37,793 bases of DNA from a virus. Positions 1,268 through 21,700 of this stretch are shown here, piece by piece. The position numbers and the translations under genes were made by a program. Where the stretch lies: the IMG/VR virus record IMGVR_UViG_3300045135_002200, positions 1 through 37,793 of that record, one strand, 5' to 3'. The first letter of the stretch is position 1. Each line of letters starts with the position of its first letter. A model generated the notes under the pieces. That model worked only from the letters and a program-made list of their open reading frames with translations. It was not told the DNA's origin and searched no databases.

Positions 1268-1294
1268 CAGATGCGGGCCGGAAGAGGCGTTAAT

Positions 1295-1675
1295 ATGCAG
1301 GCACACTTAAATATGCTTGAAACGACAATGGATAATCGAAAGATCTTATCTGCAAATTTGGTGCGCCTGATGAACGGCAACCCAAACTGCAATACACAGT
1401 TAAAACTGGCTCAAAGAGCCGGACTAGGTAAAGGTACGATAGGGCGCATACTGCACGAAGAAGTCAGCGTGACAGGTGATACGTTGAGCGCGCTCGCCCA
1501 AGCGCTCGGTGTCGAGGCTTACGAACTATTGATTGACCACTCAAAACCGCAAACCGCAGCGCCCGTCACAGCAGACGATACGTTTGATGCGATTGTGGCG
1601 ATTATGCAGAACTGGGAGGACGAGGACTTTGAGGCTTTTCAGGGGATGATTCGTGCGTACAAGAAGATGCGCTAA
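1295..1675 (+). CDS. XRE-family phage repressor (CI-like), 126 aa
   Basis: The start at ATG 1295 is chosen because GAAGAGG lies about 7 bases upstream. Other in-frame ATGs at 1271 and 1328 lack such a site. Residues about 20-75 form a helix-turn-helix of the XRE/Cro-CI type: LAQRAGLGKGTIGRILHEE with the TLSALAQALGVEAYELL helix after it. The C-terminal part is short and acidic and lacks an S24 peptidase (Ser-Lys) domain, so RecA-stimulated self-cleavage is not expected. It is divergent from the Cro-like gene across one operator, the standard arrangement for a lysogeny repressor. Likely targets are the CCC-N6-GGG sites at 1243-1258 and 2038-2115, which is inference. Confidence 0.85.
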   Translation: MQAHLNMLETTMDNRKILSANLVRLMNGNPNCNTQLKLAQRAGLGKGTIGRILHEEVSVTGDTLSALAQALGVEAYELLIDHSKPQTAAPVTADDTFDAIVAIMQNWEDEDFEAFQGMIRAYKKMR

Positions 1676-4647: not shown

Positions 4648-4836
4648 ATGTTAATTCTAACGCGAAGAGTTGGTGAGAAATTGGTTATTGGTGATGATAT
4701 TGAGGTGGTTATTTGTGCGCTGCATGGCAATCAAGTGCGATTGGGCGTTGAAGCGCCCAAAGGTATCTCTGTGCATCGTGAAGAGATTTACAAGAAAGTG
4801 TTAGCCGAGCGCGAAGCACTAAAAGCAGCAAGTTAG
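4648..4836 (+). CDS. csrA: CsrA/RsmA family carbon storage regulator, 62 aa
   Basis: ATG 4648 follows AAGGAGA. The whole protein aligns without gaps with E. coli CsrA in its first 50 residues: [32 protein letters not shown], and SVHREEIY. The RNA-binding residues L4, R6 and R44 are all present. CsrA dimers bind GGA motifs near ribosome sites and alter translation or stability. Here the gene lies between the exonuclease and SSB genes and ends in an intrinsic terminator. It may control host or phage mRNAs during infection. The identity is clear, while the phage role is inference. Confidence 0.95.
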
Positions 4837-5444: not shown

Positions 5445-5648
5445 ATGGCTACTCGTAAATGTATAGCCTGCGGCAATGCGCTCTCAGGGGCGCAGCTTAA
5501 TGCGTGCAGTCGGGCTTGTAGAAACAAAGTGGATAATATGAAACGTGCAGAACAAGCTAGTGATGTGCTAATGCGCAATCGTTTCCTCTTAGCTGCATCG
5601 AATAATAGTCACGCAACAATGGCGAACCGATACCAGAGGTGGGTGTAA
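5445..5648 (+). CDS. Small Cys-rich zinc-finger-like protein, 67 aa
   Basis: The start at ATG 5445 is fixed by AGGAG six bases upstream. A longer frame would need a TTG overlapping that region. The N-terminus has CIAC and CSRAC spaced by 12 residues (MATRKCIACGNALSGAQLNA...), a probable four-Cys zinc site. The rest is helical and basic. The stop TAA overlaps the next ATG (TAATG), coupling it to the DUF4224-type gene. The role is unknown. Confidence 0.7.
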   Translation: MATRKCIACGNALSGAQLNACSRACRNKVDNMKRAEQASDVLMRNRFLLAASNNSHATMANRYQRWV

Positions 5649-5857
5649 TGAGTGATTTATATTTAACAAAAGACGAAGTGGAGCACATTACGGGCAAGAA
5701 GCACGCCAAAGCGCAGCGAGCCGTATTAGCGGCAATGGGGTATAGCGTGAATCTTCGTCCAGACAGTACGTTTTGGGTCCCGCGAGCGCAGTTTCTTGAA
5801 CAGCAAGTGAAGCCGCGCAAGTACAAAATGAACTTGGATGCGCTCAATGTCGCCTAG
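5648..5857 (+). CDS. DUF4224-type protein, possible excisionase, 69 aa
   Basis: ATG 5648 is used because AGAGGTGGG lies just upstream and the codon overlaps the previous stop. The sequence SDLYLTKDEVEHITGKKHAK with AQRAVLAAMGY and a later WVPRAQFLEQ fits the small DUF4224 family, which is typically encoded next to phage tyrosine integrases and is thought to act like a DNA-binding excision factor. It overlaps the integrase start by 20 bases, in keeping with a linked role in recombination direction. Confidence 0.75.
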   Translation: MSDLYLTKDEVEHITGKKHAKAQRAVLAAMGYSVNLRPDSTFWVPRAQFLEQQVKPRKYKMNLDALNVA

Positions 5858-6968
5858 TATCGAGCGTAAGGCGGCAAATAAAGCGTACCCGAAGTATTGG
5901 CGCTTACGCAGGCGGCACAATAAATTCATTGTGTCGTTTCGCGTGCCGACTTCAATCCGCCACTTATGGGAGAACAAAGCCGAGGTCACGCTTGGCTTGG
6001 GCGATACGCAAGCCGAAGCCGAGCGGCAGGCGTTCTACACATGGGCGAAGAAGATACATGCTGACACCACGCCTATGAGCATGGCTGATCTGTTCGATAA
6101 ATATTCAGCCGAAGTTATCCCAGAGAAAAGCCCCAAGACGCAGAGCAGCAACCGAGACAGCATTAAACGATTGCGTGCTGTGTGTGGCGAGATACCCGTT
6201 TTAGCGTACAAAACGCACATGGCGTATCAATACAGGGATGCAGTCGCCAAAACGAAATCAGAGAAAATTGCGAATCTGGATTTACAGGTGCTATCCCATT
6301 GTTTCACCAAAGCCTTTGAATGGGGTGTTGATCTAGTAGAGCACCCAATTAAAGGCAAGGTTACAAAGTTTACGCTGCAAGCGCGTGATCGTTATGTGAC
6401 AGACGAGGAACTGGAGTGGTTCTTGTCAGTCGCCAATCCATTCTTGAACGCTTATATCCCGCTCAAAATAGCAACAGGCAAAGACCAGTCAATGATACTG
6501 GCCATCAAGCTCACAGATATTAAAGAGGATAGTCTGTTTTTCCCGAAGCGGTTTAAGACCGAGGGTAAGAGTAAGAATGTCAAAGCGAGTTCCATGCCGT
6601 TCATGCACAACGGCCAAAGCACAGGCTTAAAAGAAATACTGGATGGCATTCTGCTCTGGCGCAAGAGCGTCAAGAAAGCATGGAACAGCGAGTATTTGTT
6701 TGTGGCCCGTACTGGTCTGCCGTACTTCGATGGCAAAAACAACTCAGCATTTAAGTCGATCTGGCAGCGCGCCATGACTAAAGCACTAAAAGACACAGCG
6801 CTAACCGAGAAATTCACGGAGCATGATCTTTGCTCTAAAACCGCGAGTGACGTAGAGACAGTCGAAGAGGCAGCGCGATTGCGCGGCCATACCAATCTGC
6901 GCACCACCACACAAAACTACCGAGTGAAGCCGGAAACGGTCATACCCCATAAAAAAAAGGACCAATAA
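5838..6968 (+). CDS. int: Phage tyrosine integrase, catalytic arginines replaced, 376 aa
   Basis: The layout is that of a phage integrase: an arm-binding N-terminus (residues 15-70), a core-binding helical domain (82-180) and a catalytic domain (185-370). In the catalytic domain the segment TGKDQSMILAIKLTDI aligns with the usual TGxRxxDLLxL, putting D216 where the first catalytic Arg belongs. EHDLCSKTASD aligns with HDLRAK, putting C332 (TGC at 6831) in place of the second Arg. The later LRGH (H351) and nucleophile Y361 (TTTQNYRVKPE) are intact, and Lys candidates occur near 237-250. The gene runs from an ATG inside the preceding DUF4224-type gene. The fold is confident, but activity is doubtful. 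Confidence 0.88.
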   Translation: MRSMSPSIERKAANKAYPKYWRLRRRHNKFIVSFRVPTSIRHLWENKAEVTLGLGDTQAEAERQAFYTWAKKIHADTTPMSMADLFDKYSAEVIPEKSPKTQSSNRDSIKRLRAVCGEIPVLAYKTHMAYQYRDAVAKTKSEKIANLDLQVLSHCFTKAFEWGVDLVEHPIKGKVTKFTLQARDRYVTDEELEWFLSVANPFLNAYIPLKIATGKDQSMILAIKLTDIKEDSLFFPKRFKTEGKSKNVKASSMPFMHNGQSTGLKEILDGILLWRKSVKKAWNSEYLFVARTGLPYFDGKNNSAFKSIWQRAMTKALKDTALTEKFTEHDLCSKTASDVETVEEAARLRGHTNLRTTTQNYRVKPETVIPHKKKDQ

Positions 6969-6969
6969 G

Positions 6970-7149
6970 ATGCGATCAATGAAAACAGGCACAGAGTCGA
7001 AACGCGCAAAGATTGAGAGAGACTTGCGCAAATTCTTACGCGCAGGCGGGAAAGTACAAGAAGTGCCTATTGGTATGGGCAAGGACGCTGCACGCAATAT
7101 GCAATGGAAAGCCATGTCTATTGAGTCAGCAAGCAAGGCGGGCTTATGA
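6970..7149 (+). CDS. Small basic hypothetical protein, 59 aa
   Basis: ATG 6970 begins two bases after the integrase stop. An AAGGA site lies at the integrase 3' end. The product is basic and helical (KRAKIERDLRKFLRAGGKVQ, then PIGMGKDAARNMQWKAMSIE). Its stop overlaps the next start (ATGA). The mix of Arg/Lys and the short length suggest a nucleic-acid-binding accessory protein, but no family is recognised. Confidence 0.6.
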   Translation: MRSMKTGTESKRAKIERDLRKFLRAGGKVQEVPIGMGKDAARNMQWKAMSIESASKAGL

Positions 7150-7295
7150 GCTATAAAGTCTATTTCAAAGACGAGCATGGCAACAGTTGTTCGTTACGCC
7201 TTGCCGCAAGATCGAGCGCGCACGCGATACAGGAAGTGTACCGAGCGTTTTCGATCATTGGTGCGCCCATATCAGGCGCGCACACCAACTACTAA
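7146..7295 (+). CDS. Small hypothetical protein, 49 aa
   Basis: ATG 7146 overlaps the previous stop. The sequence starts with a probable beta hairpin (MSYKVYFKDEHGNSCSLRLA) and ends with a helix and a Gly/Ala-rich tail. It is compact enough to be one small domain. Tight coupling with its neighbours supports it as real. The function is unknown. Confidence 0.55.
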   Translation: MSYKVYFKDEHGNSCSLRLAARSSAHAIQEVYRAFSIIGAPISGAHTNY

Positions 7296-7308
7296 AGAGA
7301 GGTAAGTG

Positions 7309-7509
7309 ATGGCAAATCTATTGGCAATTCTAGTGCTAACAGTGACATTTGCGCTGATAGTCCTACCCGCATTAGGCGTGATATTCGGCCCAGATGGGCA
7401 GACCTACGGAGAGGCTATCGAGAATGGCCTGATGTACGCAGCAATAATTGGCATATTTGTTTGCGGGTTATTCGGGCTTACATGGGCTATCGATCAATTA
7501 GCACGTTAG
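7309..7509 (+). CDS. Small membrane protein, 66 aa
   Basis: ATG 7309 follows GAGAGG at good spacing (an adjacent GTG at 7306 is the alternative). Two hydrophobic segments are evident, residues 3-26 (LLAILVLTVTFALIVLPALG) and about 42-62 (MYAAIIGIFVCGLFGLTWAI), joined by a short polar loop. It is probably an inner-membrane protein, perhaps a lysogenic-conversion or exclusion factor. That role is only a guess from its place among small accessory genes. Confidence 0.65.
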   Translation: MANLLAILVLTVTFALIVLPALGVIFGPDGQTYGEAIENGLMYAAIIGIFVCGLFGLTWAIDQLAR

Positions 7510-7521
7510 GAGTAACAAGCA

Positions 7522-7695
7522 ATGCCTGACATAACCATGTGCAAAGGCGAGGGCTGCACGATCAAGAACGAGTGCTACCGCTTCACAGCCACGCCTGACA
7601 AGTACAGGCAGTCTTGCTTTGTTGAGTCGCCTTGTACTAAGAAGATGGGCGGTACTAGCTGTGATCATTACTGGCCGAATAGGGATAACAAGTGA
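7522..7695 (+). CDS. Six-cysteine small protein, 57 aa
   Basis: ATG 7522 follows TTAGGAGTAACAAGCA. The product has six Cys (CKGEGC, NEC, QSC, SPC, TSC), suggesting metal or disulfide binding, and ends in a polar tail. It has no signal peptide, so zinc binding is the likelier option. Its stop overlaps the next start (TGATG). The family is not recognised, although similar Cys-rich small proteins are common in phage accessory regions. Confidence 0.6.
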   Translation: MPDITMCKGEGCTIKNECYRFTATPDKYRQSCFVESPCTKKMGGTSCDHYWPNRDNK

Positions 7696-7853
7696 TGGAA
7701 GTTTTTAGAATAATTCTTGTTGGCGTTCTGGCAATTCTCTCTTTTGTGAATTGTTGGCTTTGGAGTAAATCAGAAAAAGGAACAGTTGAAGAGCTTGGTT
7801 ATATGGTCAAGTCATTCAGCTTCACAATCTTGATAGGTCTTATCGAACTGTAA
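7695..7853 (+). CDS. Small membrane protein, 52 aa
   Basis: ATG 7695 overlaps the preceding stop by one base. Residues 3-23 (VFRIILVGVLAILSFVNCWLW) form a clear membrane segment and the last 15 residues (FSFTILIGLIEL) a second hydrophobic stretch. The charged part between is short. It is probably an inner-membrane peptide of unknown role. It ends at the first copy of the repeated GTAAGTAATTAGGAGT module. Confidence 0.55.
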   Translation: MEVFRIILVGVLAILSFVNCWLWSKSEKGTVEELGYMVKSFSFTILIGLIEL

Positions 7854-7868
7854 GTAATTAGGAGTTAG
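7850..7868 (+). repeat. Repeated gene-boundary module, copy 1
   Basis: GTAAGTAATTAGGAGTTAG carries a stop codon and the AGGAG site of the YopX-type gene. The same text recurs at 8277 and, for 16 bases, at 8450. Confidence 0.75.
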
Positions 7869-7871
7869 GTT

Positions 7872-8288
7872 ATGAGAGAGATTAAGTTTAGGCAGTGGTT
7901 GGGCAATAGGTTCTCTTATTGGGGTGTTGGTGTGAACGAATGCACTTTCGTATCACCCGCTTCAGGCAGTGGGATAAACGCCCTAACAACTCCGCATATG
8001 CAGTACACAGGGCTAAAAGACAAGAATGGCGTTGAGATTTACGAGGGGGATATTTTCAAGGCGCACACATACCCCTTTTACAGTGATAACGACTTGAATT
8101 ATCTAGGTGTCATTACCTATGAAGATGACGCGGGCTATATGGGGTGGTATTACGACCTACATACTGTAAGCGATAGAGTGCGAGGTTCTGCCTGTGGTGG
8201 CGGTATGCCTGATCTTGAACATGCAGAGTTGGAAGTCATCGGTAACATCTACGAGAACCCTGAGCTTTTAGAGGCTGTAAGTAATTAG
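7872..8288 (+). CDS. YopX-family protein, 138 aa
   Basis: The protein opens with MREIKFRQW, has MQYTGLKDKNGVEIYEGDIF in the middle and ends with EVIGNIYENPELL, the three conserved blocks of the YopX family found in phages and prophages of many bacteria. Its function is not known. The central segment is likely a small beta-barrel. ATG 7872 follows AGGAGTTAGGTT. The last codons (VSN, stop) are part of the repeated boundary module shared with the next gene. Confidence 0.88.
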   Translation: MREIKFRQWLGNRFSYWGVGVNECTFVSPASGSGINALTTPHMQYTGLKDKNGVEIYEGDIFKAHTYPFYSDNDLNYLGVITYEDDAGYMGWYYDLHTVSDRVRGSACGGGMPDLEHAELEVIGNIYENPELLEAVSN

Positions 8289-8295
8289 GAGTTAG
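8277..8295 (+). repeat. Repeated gene-boundary module, copy 2
   Basis: GTAAGTAATTAGGAGTTAG is identical to copy 1 over 19 bases. It encodes VSN-stop of the YopX-type gene and supplies the AGGAG of the following 54-codon gene. Confidence 0.75.
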
Positions 8296-8296
8296 T

Positions 8297-8461
8297 ATGA
8301 GCCATTTGAATGGGTTTGAAGTTATTGGTGGGTTCTGGCGATTCAGGCGACTCTTGTATGCAAACACACCCTATGTCTGTTTTTTCTACGGGCAAAGCAC
8401 AGCAAATAAAATATTCTGGCGGTTTTACTGGCTTACGCCAAACACAGATGTAAGTAATTAG
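8297..8461 (+). CDS. Small aromatic-rich hypothetical protein, 54 aa
   Basis: ATG 8297 follows AGGAGTTAGT. The product is rich in Phe, Tyr and Trp (GFWRFRRLLYANTPYVCFFY and IFWRFYWLTPN) and may associate with membranes, although it has no clean hydrophobic helix. It ends VSN-stop exactly like the YopX-type protein because both genes end in the repeated boundary module. The function is unknown. Confidence 0.5.
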   Translation: MSHLNGFEVIGGFWRFRRLLYANTPYVCFFYGQSTANKIFWRFYWLTPNTDVSN

Positions 8462-8465
8462 GAGT
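8450..8465 (+). repeat. Repeated gene-boundary module, copy 3
   Basis: GTAAGTAATTAGGAGT, identical to copies 1 and 2 over these 16 bases. It again spans a stop codon and the ribosome site of the next gene. Confidence 0.7.
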
Positions 8466-8473
8466 AACAAGTG

Positions 8474-8632
8474 ATGCGACCAATTACAGTAAATCACGGA
8501 AAGCAGTTTGGTTACGCAAACTGGTACACGTTTTATTGCCCAACGTGCCAGAAGCAAATAACACGACAAGAAACAGAGCATAAGCCCTGTAAGTGCGGAA
8601 GCAAAATCGAATGGGCAGTTGAAGTTGATTAA
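8474..8632 (+). CDS. Zinc-ribbon-like small protein, 52 aa
   Basis: ATG 8474 follows AGGAGTAACAAGTG. CPTC (residues about 22-25) and CKC (about 39-41) form a four-Cys ribbon in a basic context, typical of small nucleic-acid or protein-binding phage proteins. It ends in an acidic strand (EWAVEVD). The next reading frame, starting at TTG 8625, overlaps its end. No family is assigned. Confidence 0.6.
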   Translation: MRPITVNHGKQFGYANWYTFYCPTCQKQITRQETEHKPCKCGSKIEWAVEVD

Positions 8633-8717
8633 CGAAAAACTATTAGCAACAGCAGAGATCGCATGGCTTGTTCTGGCGATAGCGGCCTTTTTTATTATCG
8701 GATATAAGGTGATTTAG
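8625..8717 (+). CDS. Possible 30-aa single-span membrane peptide (TTG start)
   Basis: A frame from TTG 8625 overlaps the previous gene by 8 bases and encodes INEKLLATAEIAWLVLAIAA followed by FFIIGYKVI, a single membrane span. Its stop is directly followed by the ATG of the next gene. The TTG start and weak ribosome site make this tentative, but without it an 85-bp gap would break a tightly packed operon. Confidence 0.4.
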   Translation: MINEKLLATAEIAWLVLAIAAFFIIGYKVI

Positions 8718-8942
8718 ATGGAATGCAAAGATTGTAAAAGTGTCATTGATCAAGCGTGTGAGGATGCGCTACTGTTCGGTAGCTCAATGATAGAGTTTAC
8801 TCCTTCTGGTTGCAGATGTATTCCAGTGCAAGAAGTAACAAAGCCCTTTCTTATCGCGCCAGATGAAGAGTCTGCGAGCGCATTAAAAGAGCAAGCGCCT
8901 GATATTACCGTTATTATTCAAAATAGATTGCCTAGAATATGA
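8718..8942 (+). CDS. Hypothetical protein, 74 aa
   Basis: ATG 8718 abuts the preceding stop, with AAGGTGA upstream. The N-terminus carries CKDCKSVID and later Cys residues (ACEDA, GCRCIP), so a metal site is possible. The C-terminal half is acidic, then hydrophobic (DITVIIQNRLPRI). It is the last gene before the attachment site. Not recognised. Confidence 0.6.
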   Translation: MECKDCKSVIDQACEDALLFGSSMIEFTPSGCRCIPVQEVTKPFLIAPDEESASALKEQAPDITVIIQNRLPRI

Positions 8943-9002
8943 GCTGCCTAGAAGCAAGGAGTGATTTAGATGTATAAGAAAACATAGTGCCGAAACCGTT
9001 GT

Positions 9003-9033
9003 TTTGTGGGGACGAAAGCCGTTTGTGGGGACG
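9003..9033 (+). repeat. Integrase arm-type sites, left arm of attP
   Basis: TTTGTGGGGACG occurs twice, at 9003-9014 and 9022-9033, 19 bp apart. An inverted near-copy lies on the other side of the tRNA-like core. Repeats flanking a core in opposite orientation are the expected arm sites of a tyrosine integrase. Confidence 0.7.
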
Positions 9034-9048
9034 GGCATGTCTGGGAAG

Positions 9049-9098
9049 TGGCGCGGCTGACAGGATTTGAACCTGTGACCATCTGGTTCGAAGCCAGA
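9049..9098 (-). other. attP: attP core: 3' half of a tRNA-Arg(UCG) gene
   Basis: On the minus strand these 50 bases read as the 3' part of a tRNA: anticodon stem TCTGG/CCAGA with loop CTTCGAA (anticodon TCG, Arg), a 5-base variable loop, T stem ACAGG/CCTGT with loop TTCAAAT, a 7-base acceptor strand and an encoded CCA end. Sequence upstream of the anticodon stem does not form a D arm or acceptor 5' strand, so this is not a complete tRNA gene. Phages that integrate into tRNA genes carry such a copy to rebuild the tRNA after integration. The crossover would fall at the anticodon loop end. The core lies 2.1 kb from the integrase gene, farther than usual. Confidence 0.8.
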
Positions 9099-9148
9099 AT
9101 TTCTATAGCCTTTTTCCCTAAATAAATCAAAGGTTTGAGTAAATCACC

Positions 9149-9160
9149 ATCCCCACACAT
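9149..9160 (-). repeat. Integrase arm-type site, right arm of attP
   Basis: On the minus strand TGTGTGGGGATG matches the left-arm repeats at 10 of 12 bases in inverted orientation, about 50 bp beyond the core. From here to 9313 no gene is seen. Confidence 0.55.
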
Positions 9161-9568: not shown

Positions 9569-9789
9569 TGGTGGCACTCACCGTTGTTGTTCTGATGATG
9601 CTCATTGCGGGCATCATTAAGACAGGCAATCTCGTGCTCGTTTTCCCTATCCTGTTCTTTATCTATCTACTCATGGACCATGAAAAGAAAGGCAAGCCCG
9701 ATAACAGTATAGATGCGCTATTCGGACTGCTCTTCTTTCTTGGTCTGGCGGGTGTACTACTGCGTATGCTAGAAAGCCTCTTCCGTTAG
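9568..9789 (+). CDS. Small membrane protein, 73 aa (holin-like size)
   Basis: GTG 9568 overlaps the previous stop as TAGTG, and GTG 9571 is also possible. Hydrophobic segments are residues 2-18, 22-36 and 50-68 (DALFGLLFFLGLAGVLLRML), with a charged loop between the second and third. Size and topology would suit a holin, but no endolysin gene is visible nearby, so this stays open. Its 3' end overlaps the end of the convergent giant gene by 21 bases. Confidence 0.6.
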   Translation: MVALTVVVLMMLIAGIIKTGNLVLVFPILFFIYLLMDHEKKGKPDNSIDALFGLLFFLGLAGVLLRMLESLFR

Positions 9790-12700
9790 TTTTGAAATAC
9801 GCTTGCTTAACTCATTCTTCTTCTTACGCAACCGCTCGATCTGACTGCGCTTCATCGAAGCAGAGTAGCGCGTACTCTTGGTGATACGGTCAATTTCCTT
9901 ATTAAGCTGACCAAGCTGCTGACGCGCACGCCCTAGCGCACCGCGATATTTCAGCTTGCCACCGCTCTCTGTTCTAAGCTCGCTTGCTCGCGCATAATCC
10001 CCGTCTTTCTGGTAGGCGCGAATCGTGCGGTAAATCTCGTCTACTTCTTTCGTGCGCTCATATAGATCAGTGGCGTACTGCGTTGTCTTAGCGTTCTTCG
10101 TGCCGCGATACAGCGCCTTAAAGACAGGTAGCTCGTCAATCGTCCAGTCTGGCTTAACAGGCTTGCCCGTTGCCCAGTCTACCGCCAAGTCTGCACCGCC
10201 AAGCGCATAAATACCCAGTGTGCCAGTGTAGCCTTTCCAAAGATGCTCAAGCTCTTTAGGCGATAAACCAAGCCATGCCGCAGTATCACGCAGCGCGACA
10301 GCCGTTGAACTGGTGCGCGAGTTAAAGCGGGCCGATTTCAATTTACCCTCGTCTGACATACCCTCGATAGGCGTGCCAAAGAAGAATGACTTATTCGCAA
10401 TCACTTCTGCAACAGGCATTACGGCCTGCGGAATCGGGTTAACATTCAGGGTGTGCATGATGTTGTGCGCGAGTGACCACGTTAATTTACTGCTTGGCTG
10501 ATTACCAAGAGCGACATGCGCCATACGTTCCGGCATCGTGCCAAAAATAATACCAATCTCAAACGGCTTAGGTATGCGGAAATGATGATCGCCCATAAAG
10601 ATATGCCAGTTTGCGTCTTTATCCCAATCTGGTAACTGCTCGTATCTTTCTTCGTCATCATTGAGAAACGCAAGTGCCACACTCCACATTGCAATCTTCG
10701 CGCCTGCGGCTGCAACTGCACGCCAATCATCCCTAGAGGCTCGGCCCAGTTTATTGAGGCCCTGTAGTCGCGCATTAAGGAAAGGCACAAAGTCCGTAAA
10801 GAATGTCAGTGCTGCAAAGTTTCCGCGCAATGAGTAGTCCATCAAGTCTTTTGATTCATAGACCGCCTGCGCCAATGGTTTGCCTGCGGCTAATGCTTTC
10901 TTGAACGTGCCTAGTCGGTTCGCGTTCTCCACTTTATCGCCCCATCCTCGGTAGGTCTGCCAACCATTTGATAGTGCGCCTTTCATCTTCTCTTTGGTGT
11001 TTAGCTGCGAGTTCTCGTAATCGTCTAGCGTCTTGCCTTTCAAACCTTTCGCTTCTAGCGCCCTGCGCACAATATCCGCTGACGCATTAGGGTCTGTGCC
11101 ATGCACATAGCCACCCTGAAAAGACGCGCCCGCAAACATGAGCGTTCTATAATCTTCATCCTCTTTCCATGCGTGCTTCATGCCCTCCCACGAATCAACA
11201 CCAAACTTAAACTGGTCTGGGTTGATCGCCCAAGCATGTACCGCATCCCTGATAAAGTTACGCACGATAAAGTCAGGCGAGGCCGTGACACCCGTTGTTA
11301 AGAGTCGCTTAAAGTAACGCGCTCCGCGCATCATTGTACTGTTAGAGCTTTGCGAATCCATGCTCGTAAACGCCCGCAACAAGGACGGTTCATGCACTCG
11401 GTAATACTCATTCTTCCCGTTACGGCTGACGCGAATCACATCAGGGTCAGTCGGTGCGGTAATCGCCCACATCATTTCATAAGACTGGCTATCTAACTTC
11501 GCCACTTCGTCTATGATCTGCTCTTCTGCGGTATCGCGCTCAAAGCCCAATACCTCGGCCACCTGCCGCCTAAACTCTCTATCCGCTTTGATACGCTTGT
11601 TCAGATCAGACTTAGGAATCGCGGCTTGCGTATAGCGCATAGTCTCATTCTGTAGATCGTCCGTATCTTTCAGATTATCTACCGCTTTGAGTAGCGCGCT
11701 ATTTTTCATGGCGCTGTCTGTGAGCTTAATCCAGTTCGTGAGTATGTTGCTCAATAGATCATTGGTTGGTAGCGTGCCACCAATTAACTGTCGAACACCC
11801 GCGCTCTGGTGTGATAACCCTCGCTTGGTTCGCGGTCCTAGCAACGAACCACCATCTACGTCTGCTTGACGATAAAACGGTATGTAATATTCTGACTCCC
11901 ATTCTGCGCGTGATGCAGCGTCAATTAGCCCTGCTTCTTCGCTCAAGTCGAGCATGGCTTGGTTGATCGCCTTATATGCCTCGTGCGCCTGCTTAAATGC
12001 CGCCTCTTTACCTTTCGCCTTATCAAGCCCTGTCTGTATATTCTCTTCGGTCAGGTTGTTTTCGCGCCCCTGCTCCATTAGCTCTTGCGCACGTTTACTG
12101 CCCATCCATGCAAGCCAGTCGTTCAGGTCAGGCCCAAGCTCTGCGAATATCTCCATCAAGCCCTGCGTACCCTCTTTGTACTGAATAATCCCGTCTTTCC
12201 ATTTCGGTGCGCCATATTTCAAGATGCCGCTCATTACATCGGCAACACCTGTTGCGAGTCGTGCGCCCACATAGCCAGACTTCGCCATGTCCGTCACGCC
12301 TGCGCGATCTTCGGCACGCTTCAATCCCACCATGCCATCAAAGAAGCCCTCATAGCCTCGCTGATACACTGACCATTCAGGGTTAAACAGGTTATCGACT
12401 ATCTCACGGATAATGTCGTATATCTTTTGCATTAGCGTCTTGGCTTCGGGAGCGGATAAACCCATCTTCTCCATTAGCTCTTGATCTTCTAGTACGCGCT
12501 CACGCGAGAACATCACGGAGTTGGGGTTTTTCTGGTACTTCGGATTTTTAACAAGCACCGTTGGCCCGACTTGGATTAGTTCATCACCAGATACTACTTG
12601 CTCCATTGTGTCTGCATTGTAGTAATAGCTTCTGCGCTCTGGGTCAAAGCCCACCTGAACCCAGTCTTTTGATTGCATGGCTTTCTGTGCGCGTGCGTAT

Positions 12701-15700
12701 AGCGATTGTATAGGCTCTTTATTCCACTCGCCTTTAATCTGCGCGAATGGTGATTTCGCTTCACCCATTGCCACCTTTAATGCCGCCTTGCCATAGCCCT
12801 CTTCTTTCAAGACAGGGTTGCGCACGCCCGCAATAGGTACATAGCCGACAGTGGCAGAACCTTTGTGTACCGTTGGAATCCAAACGCCATGATTTGTATA
12901 GGCCGGAATATCCAGTCTGACACCCACACGCTCGCCATCTTTAAGTGCGCTAGTCGCACCAATCTTCGGCACTTTGTTGGAGGCAAGCGCTTTACGCATA
13001 TCTGCAACAGACGCAATCTTAGGCAATTCATCCCGCGCAGCAGCAGGCTTGTTCGCGTCCTGTATGCGGTTAAATTCAGCCTTAGTAATCTCGCCCTTTT
13101 CAAAGCGCTTGGCCGCAGCTTGAATGGCAGGCACACGTTTAGCAGCCTCTTTGTGATTCATGCCGATACGTGAATTTTCACGATCACGCGAGAAGCGCAC
13201 ATCACTACCACCGCCACCAGAGGGAGGCGTTGTATCATTTTTAAGTGCTTTACGCGCACCGCTCAATACCGCAAACAGATCAGTTTCGCCCATCTTACTG
13301 AGCTTGATAAAGCCATGCTTGTTTAGCCATGCCCGCAACAGGCCGATCAATTCTTTGATCTTGCGCTTCACACTTGGGCGGCTCTTTTGCGCCATGTGCG
13401 CCAGTAGCTCGTCCATCAGCATGAGGTCGATATTTTCTACGTCATGCCCCTCAAGCGCAAAGCCCTCAATGTAATCGTTGATGACTTTCTCCGTGAAGCC
13501 GTACTGCTCACCAAACTTTATGACACCCTTGCGGCCACCAATCGCCATAAAAATCTCGCCCAATTTGGACTTAAACTTTTGACCAAAGAGCTTGCGTACA
13601 CCATAATGGCCTAGCGCTTCATGCAAGATACTTTCTTCAAGCAATCGCTCTGTCTTGTGCATATCACGAACGAGGTAAATCGTATCGACATCGTTATCGA
13701 ATACAGCATATACCTCGTCTGTGCCCTGATTGGCGGCTATGTCCTTTATCTTTTGCGGCAGTTGTTCAAACGTATCAACAAGCGTAATGACGCTGTTAGC
13801 GCCACCCCACTTCCCAGTAACACGCCTGATAACTTTATCTGCCTGCGCTGCGCTGATCGCACCATCGCTCTTCGGGGTCGCACCACGTTGACTATTGATA
13901 CGCCCCTTAGAGAATCGGACTGAATCTGAAAGGCGCGATACATCTGCGCCCAGTGTTTCCAGTAGTTGCTTATTCGGGCTTGGCGCGCCCTCTGGCAGAG
14001 AATCTACTTTCTCAATTTTGGCGTTGCCTGCTTCAATGTCCACATCTGTGCTGTAAGTATAAAGATGGACGTACTCGCCTGTAGACTGCTTGATTGCAGG
14101 TAAAGCCGCACCTCCGATAGAGTCAAATTCAACACCGAGCGTTTTAAACGTATCTCCCTCATGCGACACAGTAACAGGTTTAAGGTTTTCCATATTAAAC
14201 TGCGTTCTGCTGACGTTGCGCTTGGTGTCTGAGTCAATATACTTGTTCGGGGTTTCCCCTCTGCGTATCTGCTCCTGAATGTCTGTCAGCCTCTCTTCCA
14301 CCGATAACCAGTTATTCAGTTTGACAGCATCTTGCGCAGCGGCCTTTTCGCTTGAAATGTCGCCCTCCATTAGAATCTCGGCATTTTTTAACGAGTCGCG
14401 CATCGTGCGCACATTGCTTTCTGCCTGCGCTTTCGCAGTCGATAGTCTGGTTTTAGCTGTGGATAGATCAAGTAGATTAAGCAGGCGCATAGAGCCTGTC
14501 ACAGTCGAGATAGGTGACACATCAGAGTGGTGCAGATCATGTTTCCCATTATTGCCTGTCAATGTCACGGTTGCGCGATACGATGGCGAATCATCTTTAT
14601 CTGCCGCCATGCTTAGACGGTCAAAGGAAACAGACACGCCATACCCGTTCCCTATATCTACCGAGCCTGACCAGTTCTCACCATCTTTCACCGCTGCTGT
14701 TGCCGGATTGATAATGCGCTCTTTCACCATATCAGCATACGGATGATCTATCGTAAGCAAAGAGGGTGTTTTTGGTCTTTCTGGCTTCTTCTCTTTCTTC
14801 TTCTGATCTGGCTCTAGCCCGCTCCAACGGTCACTCGCCTCTCGAAACTCATCCATTGCCAATTCAAACGACTGCTGCTGCTCTTGCATTATGTCAGCGT
14901 ACTCGCCTAAATCGAAATCTGCGGCAGCAAAATTATCAACCAACGGGATAACAGCCTCATACCGCGCTATCTTATCAGGGTATGTTTCTAGCGTACTTTC
15001 TGCCCCTCGTTGGCTAGAGGCTTTCGCTAAGTAGGTGGTCATCTTATTGGCTTTATCTAAATCGCTTTGCAGCTTCAGCTTATAGATTGGATTACCTGTT
15101 GAGCTTGCCTTGAAATTCGCATAGCTGTCTGCGTCACTCGCGGAATCATCCACAAATTCATCAAGCCCACCAGAGCGGAATTGCTCAATCGCTTTCGCTT
15201 TGCGCTCCAATATCTGCCACATAACAGGGTCGCTTGAGCCTTGTGTCGCATACGCCACAATCTCGACTTCAAACCCGTCAGGGTCAGCCGCATACAGCAT
15301 ATTACCCTGTCGGATAATGCGCCCCTCGCGCTGTTCCATGTCGGACGGTCGCCACGGTGCATCCATGTGATGAAGCGCCACTAATCGCTTCTGTGCGTTT
15401 GTACCCGCGCCCATCTTTTGCGAACTACCAAGCAATACCCGTATCTCACCATTATTGACCAGATCAAACAATTCCTGCTTCGCATCTACCGTCTTATAGT
15501 CATGGATAAACGCGATTTCATTTTCAGGTATGCCCGACTCCATCATCATGGCTTTAAGGTCATCGTAGACACTAAAGCCTGTGTCGGCTGTCAGCACCGT
15601 ACTCTCAAGCTCGCGCATCATATCCTGCACTTTTTCGGCCTTATCGCCTGTCAGCCCCTCACTCTCCAGTACGCGATTTACTTTTTCAGCAATATCCCGA

Positions 15701-18700
15701 AATGTCATGCTATACGCATCCGTATCGTACAACTCCAATCTACTGCGCACATACGCTGTCGCTTCACGGCTTGGCATAACACCCTTAGCCAGTGCCACTA
15801 AATCGGCCCGCGCATTTTTCTCTGCGGTTTTAGCAGGCGTACCCATATCACTAAAGATAAGTTGCGTGCCTTTCACAGAATCATACTGGTCATAAATGCG
15901 CTTCACGTTTTTCGCTGCTCGCGCTACCTTACCTGTCGGGTCACGAGGCAGCGTTGGGTCTACTAGCCGTGAGTCGAGCGAGGCTTTCTTTGCATCACTC
16001 AATACCCATAAAGGATTGTCGATCTTAGAATATTCTCTGCGCTCTTCCCTGCCTGTAATCGCCTGTATGCCTTCCATGCGCGCAATCAGGTAATCGTTAT
16101 AGCGTTTTTGAGACTCGGTAGCCTCGGCCATATCAAGCTGACGCTCACCGCCTTTTATGTTCGGAATTGGGAATCGCGTACTCTTGCTTTCACCTGTTTT
16201 TTTGTTCTGCTGTTGTACGTCCTCTGCATAGATATTCACCATATCCTCACGAGTAATAACATCACCCACCTGACGATATAAAGCAGAAAGCGCTTTGACA
16301 TTATGAATGCCCTTTAAGACTCTGCGTTCTTTGATCGTGCCTGTTGGCGTATATTCTAGCGCTGTATCTGTACTTAAAAACGAGCCTGCAAACGCATCAA
16401 ATTGCGCAATATCCATTTCTTTCAACTGGTCATACTGGAGGTAATACATCATGGTATAAACCTCGACCAAGCTGTTACTGATAGGCGTACCCGTCATATA
16501 GGTGACACCGCCATTTTCAAGCGATTGAATGTCGCGCAGCTTCACCAGTAGATCGAGCGCACGATCAGAACCCGCAGGCGAGTTCATGCCCACCACCTGA
16601 TCGCTTGATGTAGAGTAGGTTAAGTTCTTAAATTCGTGCGCCTCATCGACCACAAGATAGTCAAAGCCTACGTCCTCAAACTCAAAACCTATATCATCCC
16701 CTGCACTCTCCAAGCTCTTTTTCTTGTCTTTCAGCTTGTCGTTCAGGCGCGTAATCGCCTGCTCAATCTGACTAACAGAAGAACCTCGGCTTCCACTCTC
16801 TTTCGCTTGATTTCTCGCCTCTTCTAACGCTTCTCGATACTCTGCAATCTTGGCGTTAATAACGCGCTCAAACGACTCATAAGAATTAGGCAGCGCTTTT
16901 AAGTGGGAGTGGCCCATGATGATTGCGTCATAGTCGCCCGTAGCCGCACGCGCAAAAAACTGCTTACGATTTTTGGCGCTCATCTGTTTTTCCGAGGCGA
17001 CTAGAATGTTTGCTCCTGCATACAATTCGTAAAAGTCAGCCGCAAAACTCCCGATAATATGATTTGGTACGGTAATCAGGGGCTTTTTACTTAACCCTAA
17101 TCGTCTGCGCTGCATCACTCCGCTAATCGCTGTAAAGGTCTTGCCTGCGCCTACCGTATGATCGAGCAATACAGACTTCGACATGACCATTCTGGCCGCG
17201 CCATCCAACTGCGTTTTACGCATTTCAATAACTGGATTTTGACCAACTGGCTTGAAGTACAAGCGCCCGTTGTATTTACGCTCTGCTTGCGTATTAACAC
17301 GATCATTAAAGTTTTGCGCCACCGTGATCTGGGTGGCTTCGTTGTTCTGCACAAAGGTTTCAAACGCAGAAGCAAGGTTGTTTATGAGTAGGTTGACTTG
17401 CTTTGTACCCTCTTCGTCCTTTCTACGATCAGAACTTGGCCCTTCGTAGATCACTAGAGACTTGCCATTTGCTGCTGCATTAAAGAGTTCGATAACACTC
17501 TTATGGTCATTCTTAAACTGCGCGCCTATCTCGGTGAGCGCGCCTATTGAATTACCCTCGGCCATGATCTTGCCGAGCTTGCGGTTAATGCTTACTTTGA
17601 TGGCTTTCCCGCCAAGCGCTTCAAGAAAATCCTTAAATACTTCGGCATCCACCCAAGGAGCGCGGATAGAGGCTTTTACTTTATCCACCGGAATATCCGC
17701 AGGAAGCACTCGCTCTAGGTGCTTAATGTTGGCATCTAGTCCCTGCTCTTGCGCCAGTTTGTACTTGGCTTTTACATTGCCTGACAAGTAATCGTCTACA
17801 AAGTCATAGTCGCCCGTTTCAGGGTTTAGGAATAGGTATGGCGAGTCGCCAGTCGTTAGCTTCTCTTTCGCCTCGCTGCGCGATATGCCCATTATTTTTG
17901 CGACATAGGACAGATCAATCTTGCCGTTTTCCTGCATGGAAAAGCTAACAGCATCATCAACCGTCTTAGCGGAGCTTGGTTTTTTGTAGGACTCAATGAC
18001 GCGCCCATCAAAGATAGCGTGTTTGCTGATCTTGCCGCTCGCTTTGTTAAACGAATCCAAGCCCGATTCAATACCCAAGTCGCCACGCAACAAACCGAGG
18101 TTGTCATCAATGGAGGCCGTTTTGGTTTTCGTGCTGTGCTCCAAGACAAACGCATCGTACTGCTGATTGAGCTTTTTACGCAGCGCGTTCATTTCTTTGA
18201 GGTCTTGCTTTTCTGCGCGTATCAGAGACAGTGCAGTATTGCGCATGTTTAGAATAGATTTTAGCTTTCGATACTTGGCATCCCCTAAACGCGATGTAGC
18301 GCTATCCAAAAATTTGCGCACTTCAAGCTGCATGGCTGCTTTGCTCTTGCGCCCCTGCACATAATCCTCAACCGCTTTAAACGCCTTATTATTGGCTTTT
18401 AGTTTGCCTCGCGTATTGAGTAGCTTTTCTTTGTAGGTTTTCTCAATCACAAAATCATTTTGCGAAGTCAGGCCATCTAGTAGCCGCGCATTATCTGACC
18501 ATGCTGTTTTACTGGTGACTTCAACCACGTTCGCACCAGAGCCGCTATCCTCTTCGCGTAGTAAGATTTTGCCTTTGTCGTTGAGCATCATGCCGCCTAC
18601 AGGCAAGTCACTCTCTGATAGCAGCACCTCACCGCTTAGGCTGTCTTGCTCTTCCGCTGTCAGTGTCAGGTCCACACCGTCAGCCATCTTTTTCATAGCC

Positions 18701-21700
18701 TTAGCAATCGCGGCTTGCAAGTCGCTATGCTCGTCTGTCGGATGGACCGTCAACTCCCCGCCTGTACGCTCACCGTACATCGTGCCATCCATTGCTGCGC
18801 GACCAAGCACCATGTCGGGATTGTCGATGAAATATTGATTCATCTTCACGCCATTGGCTTCACCGCTATTGTTCGTCCAGACAAGATTCTTAGACTGCTC
18901 ACCCTTTTTCAACTTACGGAACACCACAATATCAGTCGTGACTTCTGTTCCGGCATTTGACTTAAAGGCTGTATTAGGTAGGCGCACAGCCCCGACAAAC
19001 TCCATAGTCTTGCTGAGTTGCGCGTGATTTTGGTTCTTGGTGTCCAGAAAGTTCTTGGTGATGACCATCATCATCAAGCCGTTGTCGTGCAGCAGTTTGG
19101 CGCTCTTAGCAACCATGTAGTTATGCAGACTTAGCCCTGATATGTCTTTGTGCTTGTCGTCATAGATCGGGTTTGCGCCAAAAGGCGGGTTGCCGATAGC
19201 AAGGCTAAAGACGTTCTCTTTAAAGCCTGCATCTTGAAATCCTTTAACCTGAATGGTGGCATCATCATAGATCAGGCTTGAGATAGTGCCTGTAATGGTA
19301 TCAATCTCACTGGCGAACCAGTCAGAGTTCTCGCGCATATCTGCGGGCTGCCAACCTATAAAGTTACCAGAGCCGACCGATGGCTCAACAATCCGCATCT
19401 TAGAATCATTCAAGCCAAACGCTTCAACACCTGCCCACATACCTTTTACCACATCCTTAGAAGTGTAAAACGCAGTCGTGATCGAGGCGCGAATGTTGTT
19501 GTATTCGGTTTCAGTAACGAGAGACTTTAATTCGTTGTTCGCATCTTGCGCGTATTTGCGCGTAGTTCTGGAATCGAACACTTCACGCAAGCCACCCCAT
19601 CCCACATAGCGGGCAAGGGTTTCTTTCTCTTGCAGAGTTGCTTTGCGCTTTTCTCTGACAAGCTGTTTGGCTAATCGTATTGCTGACAGGTTCGCTTCAA
19701 CACGCTCTTTTGGCGTGCCATTGGCTACCCCCTCAACATCATCAAGATTTAGGCTTGATGTTTCAGTATCACTCGCACCGCTTCGCTTTGTGCTTGAGTT
19801 GCGTCCACCCCGACTCCCACCAGAGCTTCCGCTTCTGCTGCCGCCATTTTTCCGAGTGCCACTATTTCCCGTTCCCGCATTGTCTTGCTCATTTCCTGAT
19901 ACTTCGGATTGTTCATCAGTGCTTGTGCTATCTGTTCCTGCATCGTCACTTTCATCGTAGTTATCCCCTACAATTTCATTTTCGTTATTGGTGTCTGGCG
20001 TATCATTCACCACTTCCTCTTCTAATGAAAGAGAATCTAACACATCATCAATATTGGCCGCTTCTACTTCTGCCGCCCCGCTCAGGCCCTCAAACTCTTG
20101 CGTTCTTGGGTCATACTTTGCAGCCATATACCACGATTTAAGGTATGGCTTAACCATATCACCTAAATCATTCACCATCGCCTTAGAGTAGGCGGCAAAG
20201 GTTCTCGCGCCCTTTTCTATATGATAGCCTGCTAGGGTTATGCCTGCCTGCACTAGCTCAGGGTCAAGACCGCTATTCATTTGGCCTAGCTTGGCTTTCA
20301 GTAAAGCGCGCGCCTTTTCTGCTGCATCCTCGGTGAACACAGTATTTTTTGATACGCTTGGTTTTTCTGGCTTTTGAGGCTTCTCAGGTTTAGCCGCAGT
20401 CGGTGTCTCTTCGGCCTGCTCTTCGGCTTTCGCCTCTTCCAGTAGCGCATCCCAATCGGCCATCATAGCCGCCACTTCGTCATCAGAGGGTATGTCGCTT
20501 AACTCTTGCTCGTCCAATGCTGCCATTTCAGCATCCATTTCAGCATCAAAGTCATCGTCCGATAATGCACCCTCTACTTCCGGCTCTACTTCTTGTACAG
20601 ATTCCTGTTCAACTGGCTCTATCTTTTCTGTTCCGGCAATCTGCGCATCCGTCCACTCAGACATAGGCGGCAAGTAGTTGATTGGTGTCTTAGCGTTGTA
20701 ATCATCGGCCAGTGCTTCATCAATTTTTGGCAATATCTTTTCTAACACGGACGCTTCTTTGCTTGTCCATGCCATGTGCGCCAAGTCTCGCGTAGGTATT
20801 TTATCGTGAAAGATGATGTTGTGATGTGCCAACTGCGCATACAGCGCTACCGCTTTCCATGCGTCCTCACGCCACCCATCAAAGGCGATAGGCGCTAAAT
20901 CAATACCCTCAAACTGCGGGGTGATGCGCGCCTCTGTGCTGCCATGCGCCTCTCTAAACTCATCAAACTTCTGCTGCGACTCAAAGACAAAGCCACCATG
21001 CGCGCCACCGCCATCTTTGCCTAGCCCTTTTAGCGTGCTCGCTACATTACCCGTTGATTGCGCGCCCCACTGTTGCGCTAAGGCTTTCATTTCCGGCAAG
21101 GCGTACACTTTGCGCGGCACATAGCCACCGCCAAGCTGTACTGATAGCGTGCTAACATCGTAGTCTGTAGTAGACATAACAAAGCGCAATCGCGTCTTGG
21201 ACGCTTGCATTAACGCTTCGCCCTCTAAAGGCGGGTCTACGTCTGCTTTGTTATCTGATTCTTGCGACTTGTTAGGCGCTAACGGCTTGAGAATTGAACC
21301 GTTCGGTTTCTTAATGTCTTTAAAATCTTCATCAAAGAGATAGCTTTCTGCGCTGTCCTTATCTGCCGGAGTGAGCGTTTTTCGTCCCACCATTTCACGG
21401 AATTGACGGGCGTTAAAGTTATCACCGACACGCTCCGCTTCTGCAAGCGCGTTTTCAGCTAACCATTGGTCAACGCGAGATAGCGTGTTGGCTGTTTTAA
21501 TGCGCGTAGAGGTATCGACTTTCGGGAATGGCGTTGTGCTTGCGCCAGAGGTTGTTAAAAGCACTGTGCCTTGCGCGTAGAGTTGATCTTGCTGATACGG
21601 TTGCGGCTTGCTTTCGCTCGACTTGTCCTTGTCGCCCTTGCGCCACTTCATGTAGTCCGCATCACTCACCTCAATATCTCGGTCAGCATCAAAGACTTGT

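Follow-up and report, generated by a model that had tools for sequence, protein, structure and literature searches.

A phage integrase with Asp and Cys at its two catalytic arginine positions and candidate replacement arginines nearby

The window, meaning the whole stretch of 37,793 nucleotides from IMG/VR virus record IMGVR_UViG_3300045135_002200, encodes a tyrosine integrase without Arg at either canonical catalytic position, which is probably an active lambda-type integrase of a temperate phage with both arginines relocated, to Arg238 and Arg349 (Table 1). The more specific proposal, that in an active enzyme Arg-I has moved two residues ahead of the catalytic Lys (K−2) and Arg-II into the helix before the box-II His, with the acidic residue of the catalytic hexad shifted as well, has somewhat better than even chances. 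The case for activity draws on the substitutions, their co-occurrence with new arginines, conservation, the architecture of the attachment system, purifying selection, and a relative that appears to be integrated.

Table 1. Integrase residues, attachment features, and associated genes, with positions in the window
Feature	Position	Strand	Basis
Cro/CI-type HTH regulator; fits a temperate phage	1271..1675	+	Domain match
DUF4224/excisionase-like protein, directly upstream of the integrase gene	5648..5857	+	Domain match
Tyrosine integrase of the lambda type, 376 aa; Asp replaces Arg-I, Cys replaces Arg-II	5838..6968	+	ORF, profile, AF2 model
Asp216 (GAC), Arg-I position	6483..6485	+	Alignment; context ATGKDQSM
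Met219 in place of the usual hexad Asp/Glu; acid now at 216	6492..6494	+	Alignment
Arg238 (CGG), two residues before catalytic Lys240; proposed Arg-I replacement	6549..6551	+	Alignment, co-occurrence
Lys240 (AAG), β2 catalytic lysine	6555..6557	+	Alignment
His329 of the HxxR motif, kept	6822..6824	+	Alignment
Cys332 (TGC), Arg-II (HxxR) position	6831..6833	+	Alignment; context TEHDLCSK
Arg349 (CGC), LRGH; proposed Arg-II replacement	6882..6884	+	Occurs only with Cys332
His351, box II	6888..6890	+	Alignment
Tyr361, nucleophile	6918..6920	+	Alignment
Exact 12-mer TTTGTGGGGACG, present twice with starts 19 bp apart; probable arm-type sites	9003..9033	+	Repeat search
Predicted attP core, matching the 3′ half of a tRNA-Arg(TCG) in reverse complement	9049..9098	+	46/50 vs. 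tRNA beside L008 integrase
Arm motif repeated in inverted orientation beyond the core	9147..9157	-	Repeat search

The register of the protein against lambda Int was set with a profile of 80 relatives and with the fold match of an AF2 model. The family profile matched lambda Int at 6.6e-27, starting from residue 1, and by this profile the protein appears to have an N-terminal arm-binding region as in lambda Int. The AF2 model based on the 80-sequence alignment (pLDDT 93.2, pTM 0.76) matched lambda Int (1z19) with a Z score of 20.9 and an rmsd of 2.7 across 262 residues. A model built from four sequences was discarded, its catalytic domain having a pLDDT of 50.8. Profile and fold alignment both gave the pairs R212/D216, K235/K240, H308/H329, R311/C332, H333/H351, and Y342/Y361 (lambda/window). 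The first-pass annotation, which had read an Asp and a Cys at the two Arg positions with His351, Tyr361, and the rest of the frame intact, was thus borne out: the ORF is uninterrupted, His329 and Lys240 are kept as well, and the structural alignment that it had named as a possible refutation places D216 and C332, not arginines, in the catalytic positions. It is hardly credible that the sequences are misaligned and the canonical arginines lie elsewhere in the register, as the weak Pfam match (PF00589, 18.1 bits against a gathering cut-off of 27.1) might be taken to mean, since the flanking motifs TGxDxxxxL, EHDLCxKxASD, and GHxN..TT...YR align without gaps to relatives with HDLR, and the profile and fold alignments to lambda Int concur.

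The integrase fell into no NCBIfam family. Homology to the PF00589 catalytic domain and its fold was found with the profile and the AF2 model, the Pfam score alone being below the cut-off, and the Tyr nucleophile, β2 Lys, HxxR His, and box-II His of PF00589 are all present (Y361, K240, H329, H351), while Arg-I and Arg-II are absent from their canonical positions (D216, C332). Since known members also lack one Arg, the protein is best described as a superfamily variant and not as a canonical member. It shares with lambda Int the fold, the arm-binding N-region by profile, the K/H/H/Y residues, and an attP core with flanking arm-like repeats, but has Asp, Cys, and Met at the positions of Arg212, Arg311, and Asp215, respectively, and adds Arg238, Arg349, and a tRNA-Arg core.

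The loss of Arg-I was compared across 87 sequences from viral contigs, GTDB genomes, and phage records. In 43 of them, Asp, Ala, Ser, or Gln stood in its place, and the absence of Arg-I spans a broad clade of relatives. An Arg at K−2 (R-x-K, here R238-x-K240) was present in 42 of the 43 sequences without Arg-I, vs. 1 of the 44 with it (Fisher 1.5e-22, phylogeny ignored). A tree built without these columns required nine changes for each trait, and the independent pairs on supported branches went in opposite directions in 4/5 cases (p = 0.125), too few for significance. The acid at 219 was lost in 18 of the 20 members with Asp216, vs. 1 of the 67 others, so that it has apparently shifted by one helical turn, to 216.

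A K−2 arginine has counterparts in other tyrosine recombinases. IntDOT, which keeps Arg-II, has the residues S259, R285, and K287, the substitute arginine being R285, two residues before K287. Cre carries an Arg at K−2 besides its Arg-I, and the K−2 Arg is therefore not exclusive to enzymes without Arg-I. Members of the CTnDOT integrase subgroup lack Arg-I, and a different, downstream Arg substitutes for it (PMC8138268); the window protein is likened to IntDOT/IntCTnDOT, which belong to a Bacteroides conjugative transposon family, by analogy and not by alignment. Among the relatives, the β-proteobacterial DUF4224-linked integrases (TGMARSDLL ... IQRHKT; e.g., that of Xanthomonas phage PBR31) resemble the window in having Ala or Ser for Arg-I, an Arg at K−2, and downstream repeats at 19-bp spacing, often beside a tRNA, but differ in their intact HDLR Arg-II, the acid present at 219, and LLxH in place of LRGH. 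A Polynucleobacter element whose integrase has Ala at Arg-I was found with att repeats at both ends, 29.7 kb apart.

The second arginine showed a narrower pattern. Cys332 and Arg349 occurred together in all four sequences with the combination of Asp216 and Cys332 (the D/C sequences) and were absent from all 83 others. Arg349 replaces a Leu (lambda L331), turning LLxH into LRGH beside the box-II His, and in the AF2 model it lies at the end of the helix preceding His351. Only two basic residues were gained relative to the sister clade, R349 and, in the linker, K174. Elsewhere in the clade, Lys stands at Arg-II in L118, L119, and L128, and a conserved, intact group (L109, L110, L113, L115, L122, L126, and L127) has ERDLR for EHDLR, with Arg at the HxxR His. 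With Lys at Arg-II or Arg for His329 in these members, the active site appears unusually labile. We know of no described relocation of Arg-II, while the move of Arg-I has a precedent in another family.

A small subset of tyrosine recombinases has Lys as Arg-II (PMC4499138), and one such integrase, Pal_Y-Int_1, was shown to be active (PMC12884075). Together with the CTnDOT type, these members indicate that the premise of the first-pass annotation, that both arginines are needed, was too strong. The active Pal_Y-Int_1 also lends some weight to an unlikely alternative, in which the enzyme is active with R238 as the Arg-I substitute, Arg-II is dispensable or replaced by K334 or a partner subunit, and R349 is structural. 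Variation of Arg-II in the same clade fits this alternative, as does the near invariance of K334 across the family. Lys, however, preserves the charge and Cys does not, and R349 and C332 always occur as a pair, with R349 found in no other sequence. Moreover, K334 occurs with or without Arg-II and hence is no specific substitute. Taken together, the shared substitutions and the new nearby arginines suggest a working, rewired active site over a broken gene, and R238 and R349 fit the earlier idea that a nearby Lys or Arg might substitute.

The three other D/C integrases come from IMG/VR phages (L003, L007, and L008) and share D216, C332, and the LRGH Arg at 53%–63% identity. Judging by their different gene neighborhoods, these phages are not close copies of one another. 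Among the four integrases, dN was 0.20–0.45 and dS was saturated, which indicates that the integrase has long been held by purifying selection. As judged by its presence in independent phages, the D/C state is more than chance or random decay. It would therefore be very improbable that the integrase was recently inactivated in a phage losing lysogeny: two catalytic residues are altered and the change from Arg to Cys takes a single transition, but the identical state is found in four diverged phages with intact ORFs, with saturated dS at low dN and with associated Arg gains. A decayed, frameshifted integrase fragment in L009, in which HDMC occurs but R349 does not, could be cited for recent inactivation, and its appearance is that of simple decay. 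The first-pass annotation had left the choice between an inactive enzyme and a divergent subgroup whose active site is altered; the latter is well supported by these results and the former found no support.

In the focused tree, the four D/C sequences lie on one side of a branch, with a support of 63/40 for their monophyly. The pairing of C332 and R349 is thus probably one evolutionary event, represented by four sequences on a weakly supported branch. Scans for the HDxC and LRGH patterns returned the same contigs only, besides chance or decayed matches, and no D/C member was found among the relatives read from the GTDB scan and about 1,150 proteobacterial genomes (L142 left out).

The surroundings of the integrase gene look like those of a functional integration system. 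By sequence, the features of a heterobivalent lambda-type system are all present, namely the N-domain, a tRNA core, 19-bp repeats, and a DUF4224 Xis. At the predicted attP core, Rfam scored a tRNA just below threshold (28.1 bits, cut-off 29 bits; E = 3.5e-4). The pair of putative arm-type sites is the sole exact 12-mer pair at 19 bp in the window, and exact repeats with 19-bp spacing were found downstream of the integrase gene in 39/94 relatives vs. 2/94 upstream, which served as the control. The tRNA-Arg half-core is also present in L007. In L008, a complete tRNA-Arg and the start of a second tRNA lie beside the integrase gene at the contig end, as expected of an integrated copy; the attR copy of this element was not found on the contig, which covers one element end and stops before the other.

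In L003, a tRNA-Lys half lies about 100 bases past the integrase stop at 5484, and the other three D/C phages use tRNA-Arg(TCG). The target thus seems to have changed within the D/C group, which speaks against a dead enzyme, since such an enzyme would not change its target. This bears on the possibility that the recombinase fold has been repurposed, either to regulate by binding DNA or to serve as an accessory protein without catalysis. MrpR of Bacillus phage SPβ is such a repressor, keeping K and Y without equivalents of Arg-I, the His, and Arg-II (PMC10516654). The window protein shares with MrpR the tyrosine-recombinase fold and the lack of both canonical arginines, but it differs in retaining the Lys, both His, and Tyr, whereas MrpR is also without the HxxR His. 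It further differs in its att system, with Xis, tRNA cores, and arm-like repeats preserved beside the integrase. Three of the D/C phages have a tRNA-Arg core and L003 has a tRNA-Lys core, a difference that suits an integrase which works and switches targets, and no other recombinase was recognized among the window ORFs scanned, in which small ORFs were partly covered. A regulatory or accessory role consequently appears quite improbable.

Several further features of the region were recorded. In the window, about 2.1 kb of small genes (6969–9048) separate the integrase gene from attP, and in L003, L007, and L008 the core lies within about 350 bp after the integrase gene. Directly 3′ of the integrase gene, a small protein is encoded that carries a SutA RNAP-binding domain (6970–7149; Pfam E = 4.4e-7, just above the cut-off), and a phage CsrA homologue (4651–4836; Pfam E = 2.5e-22) is flanked by YqaJ recombinase and SSB genes. 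A single ORF of 4945 aa on the minus strand (9769–24606) has SNF2/helicase, methylase-like, and LPD38 domains; its product is a polyvalent protein of the virion type and of giant size. At the start of the contig, TGTTGTATCGTT is repeated in tandem, three copies in all (1–37).

For the favored explanation, an active integrase with both arginines relocated, the following mechanism can be proposed. The integrase would use a tRNA-Arg(TCG) gene as the insertion site of the phage and the DUF4224 protein as its directionality factor, and would cleave DNA by the usual Tyr chemistry. Arg238, next to Lys240, would take the role of Arg-I as the phosphate-binding arginine, and the acidic residue would have moved from 219 to the vacated position 216. 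Arg349, two residues ahead of His351, would take over from Arg-II, now Cys332. Two points of this mechanism are inferred: the activity of the integrase, and the contact of R238 and R349 with the scissile phosphate.

The R-K-H-R-H/Y motif serves to call integrases active or dead. If the proposed explanation is true, catalytic arginines can migrate within the tyrosine-recombinase fold, and caution would be called for with motif-based integrase filters. C332 and R349 form a ready-made pair for experiments on the rewiring of a phosphotransfer active site, and the wider integrase family is a source of new tRNA-targeting integrases.
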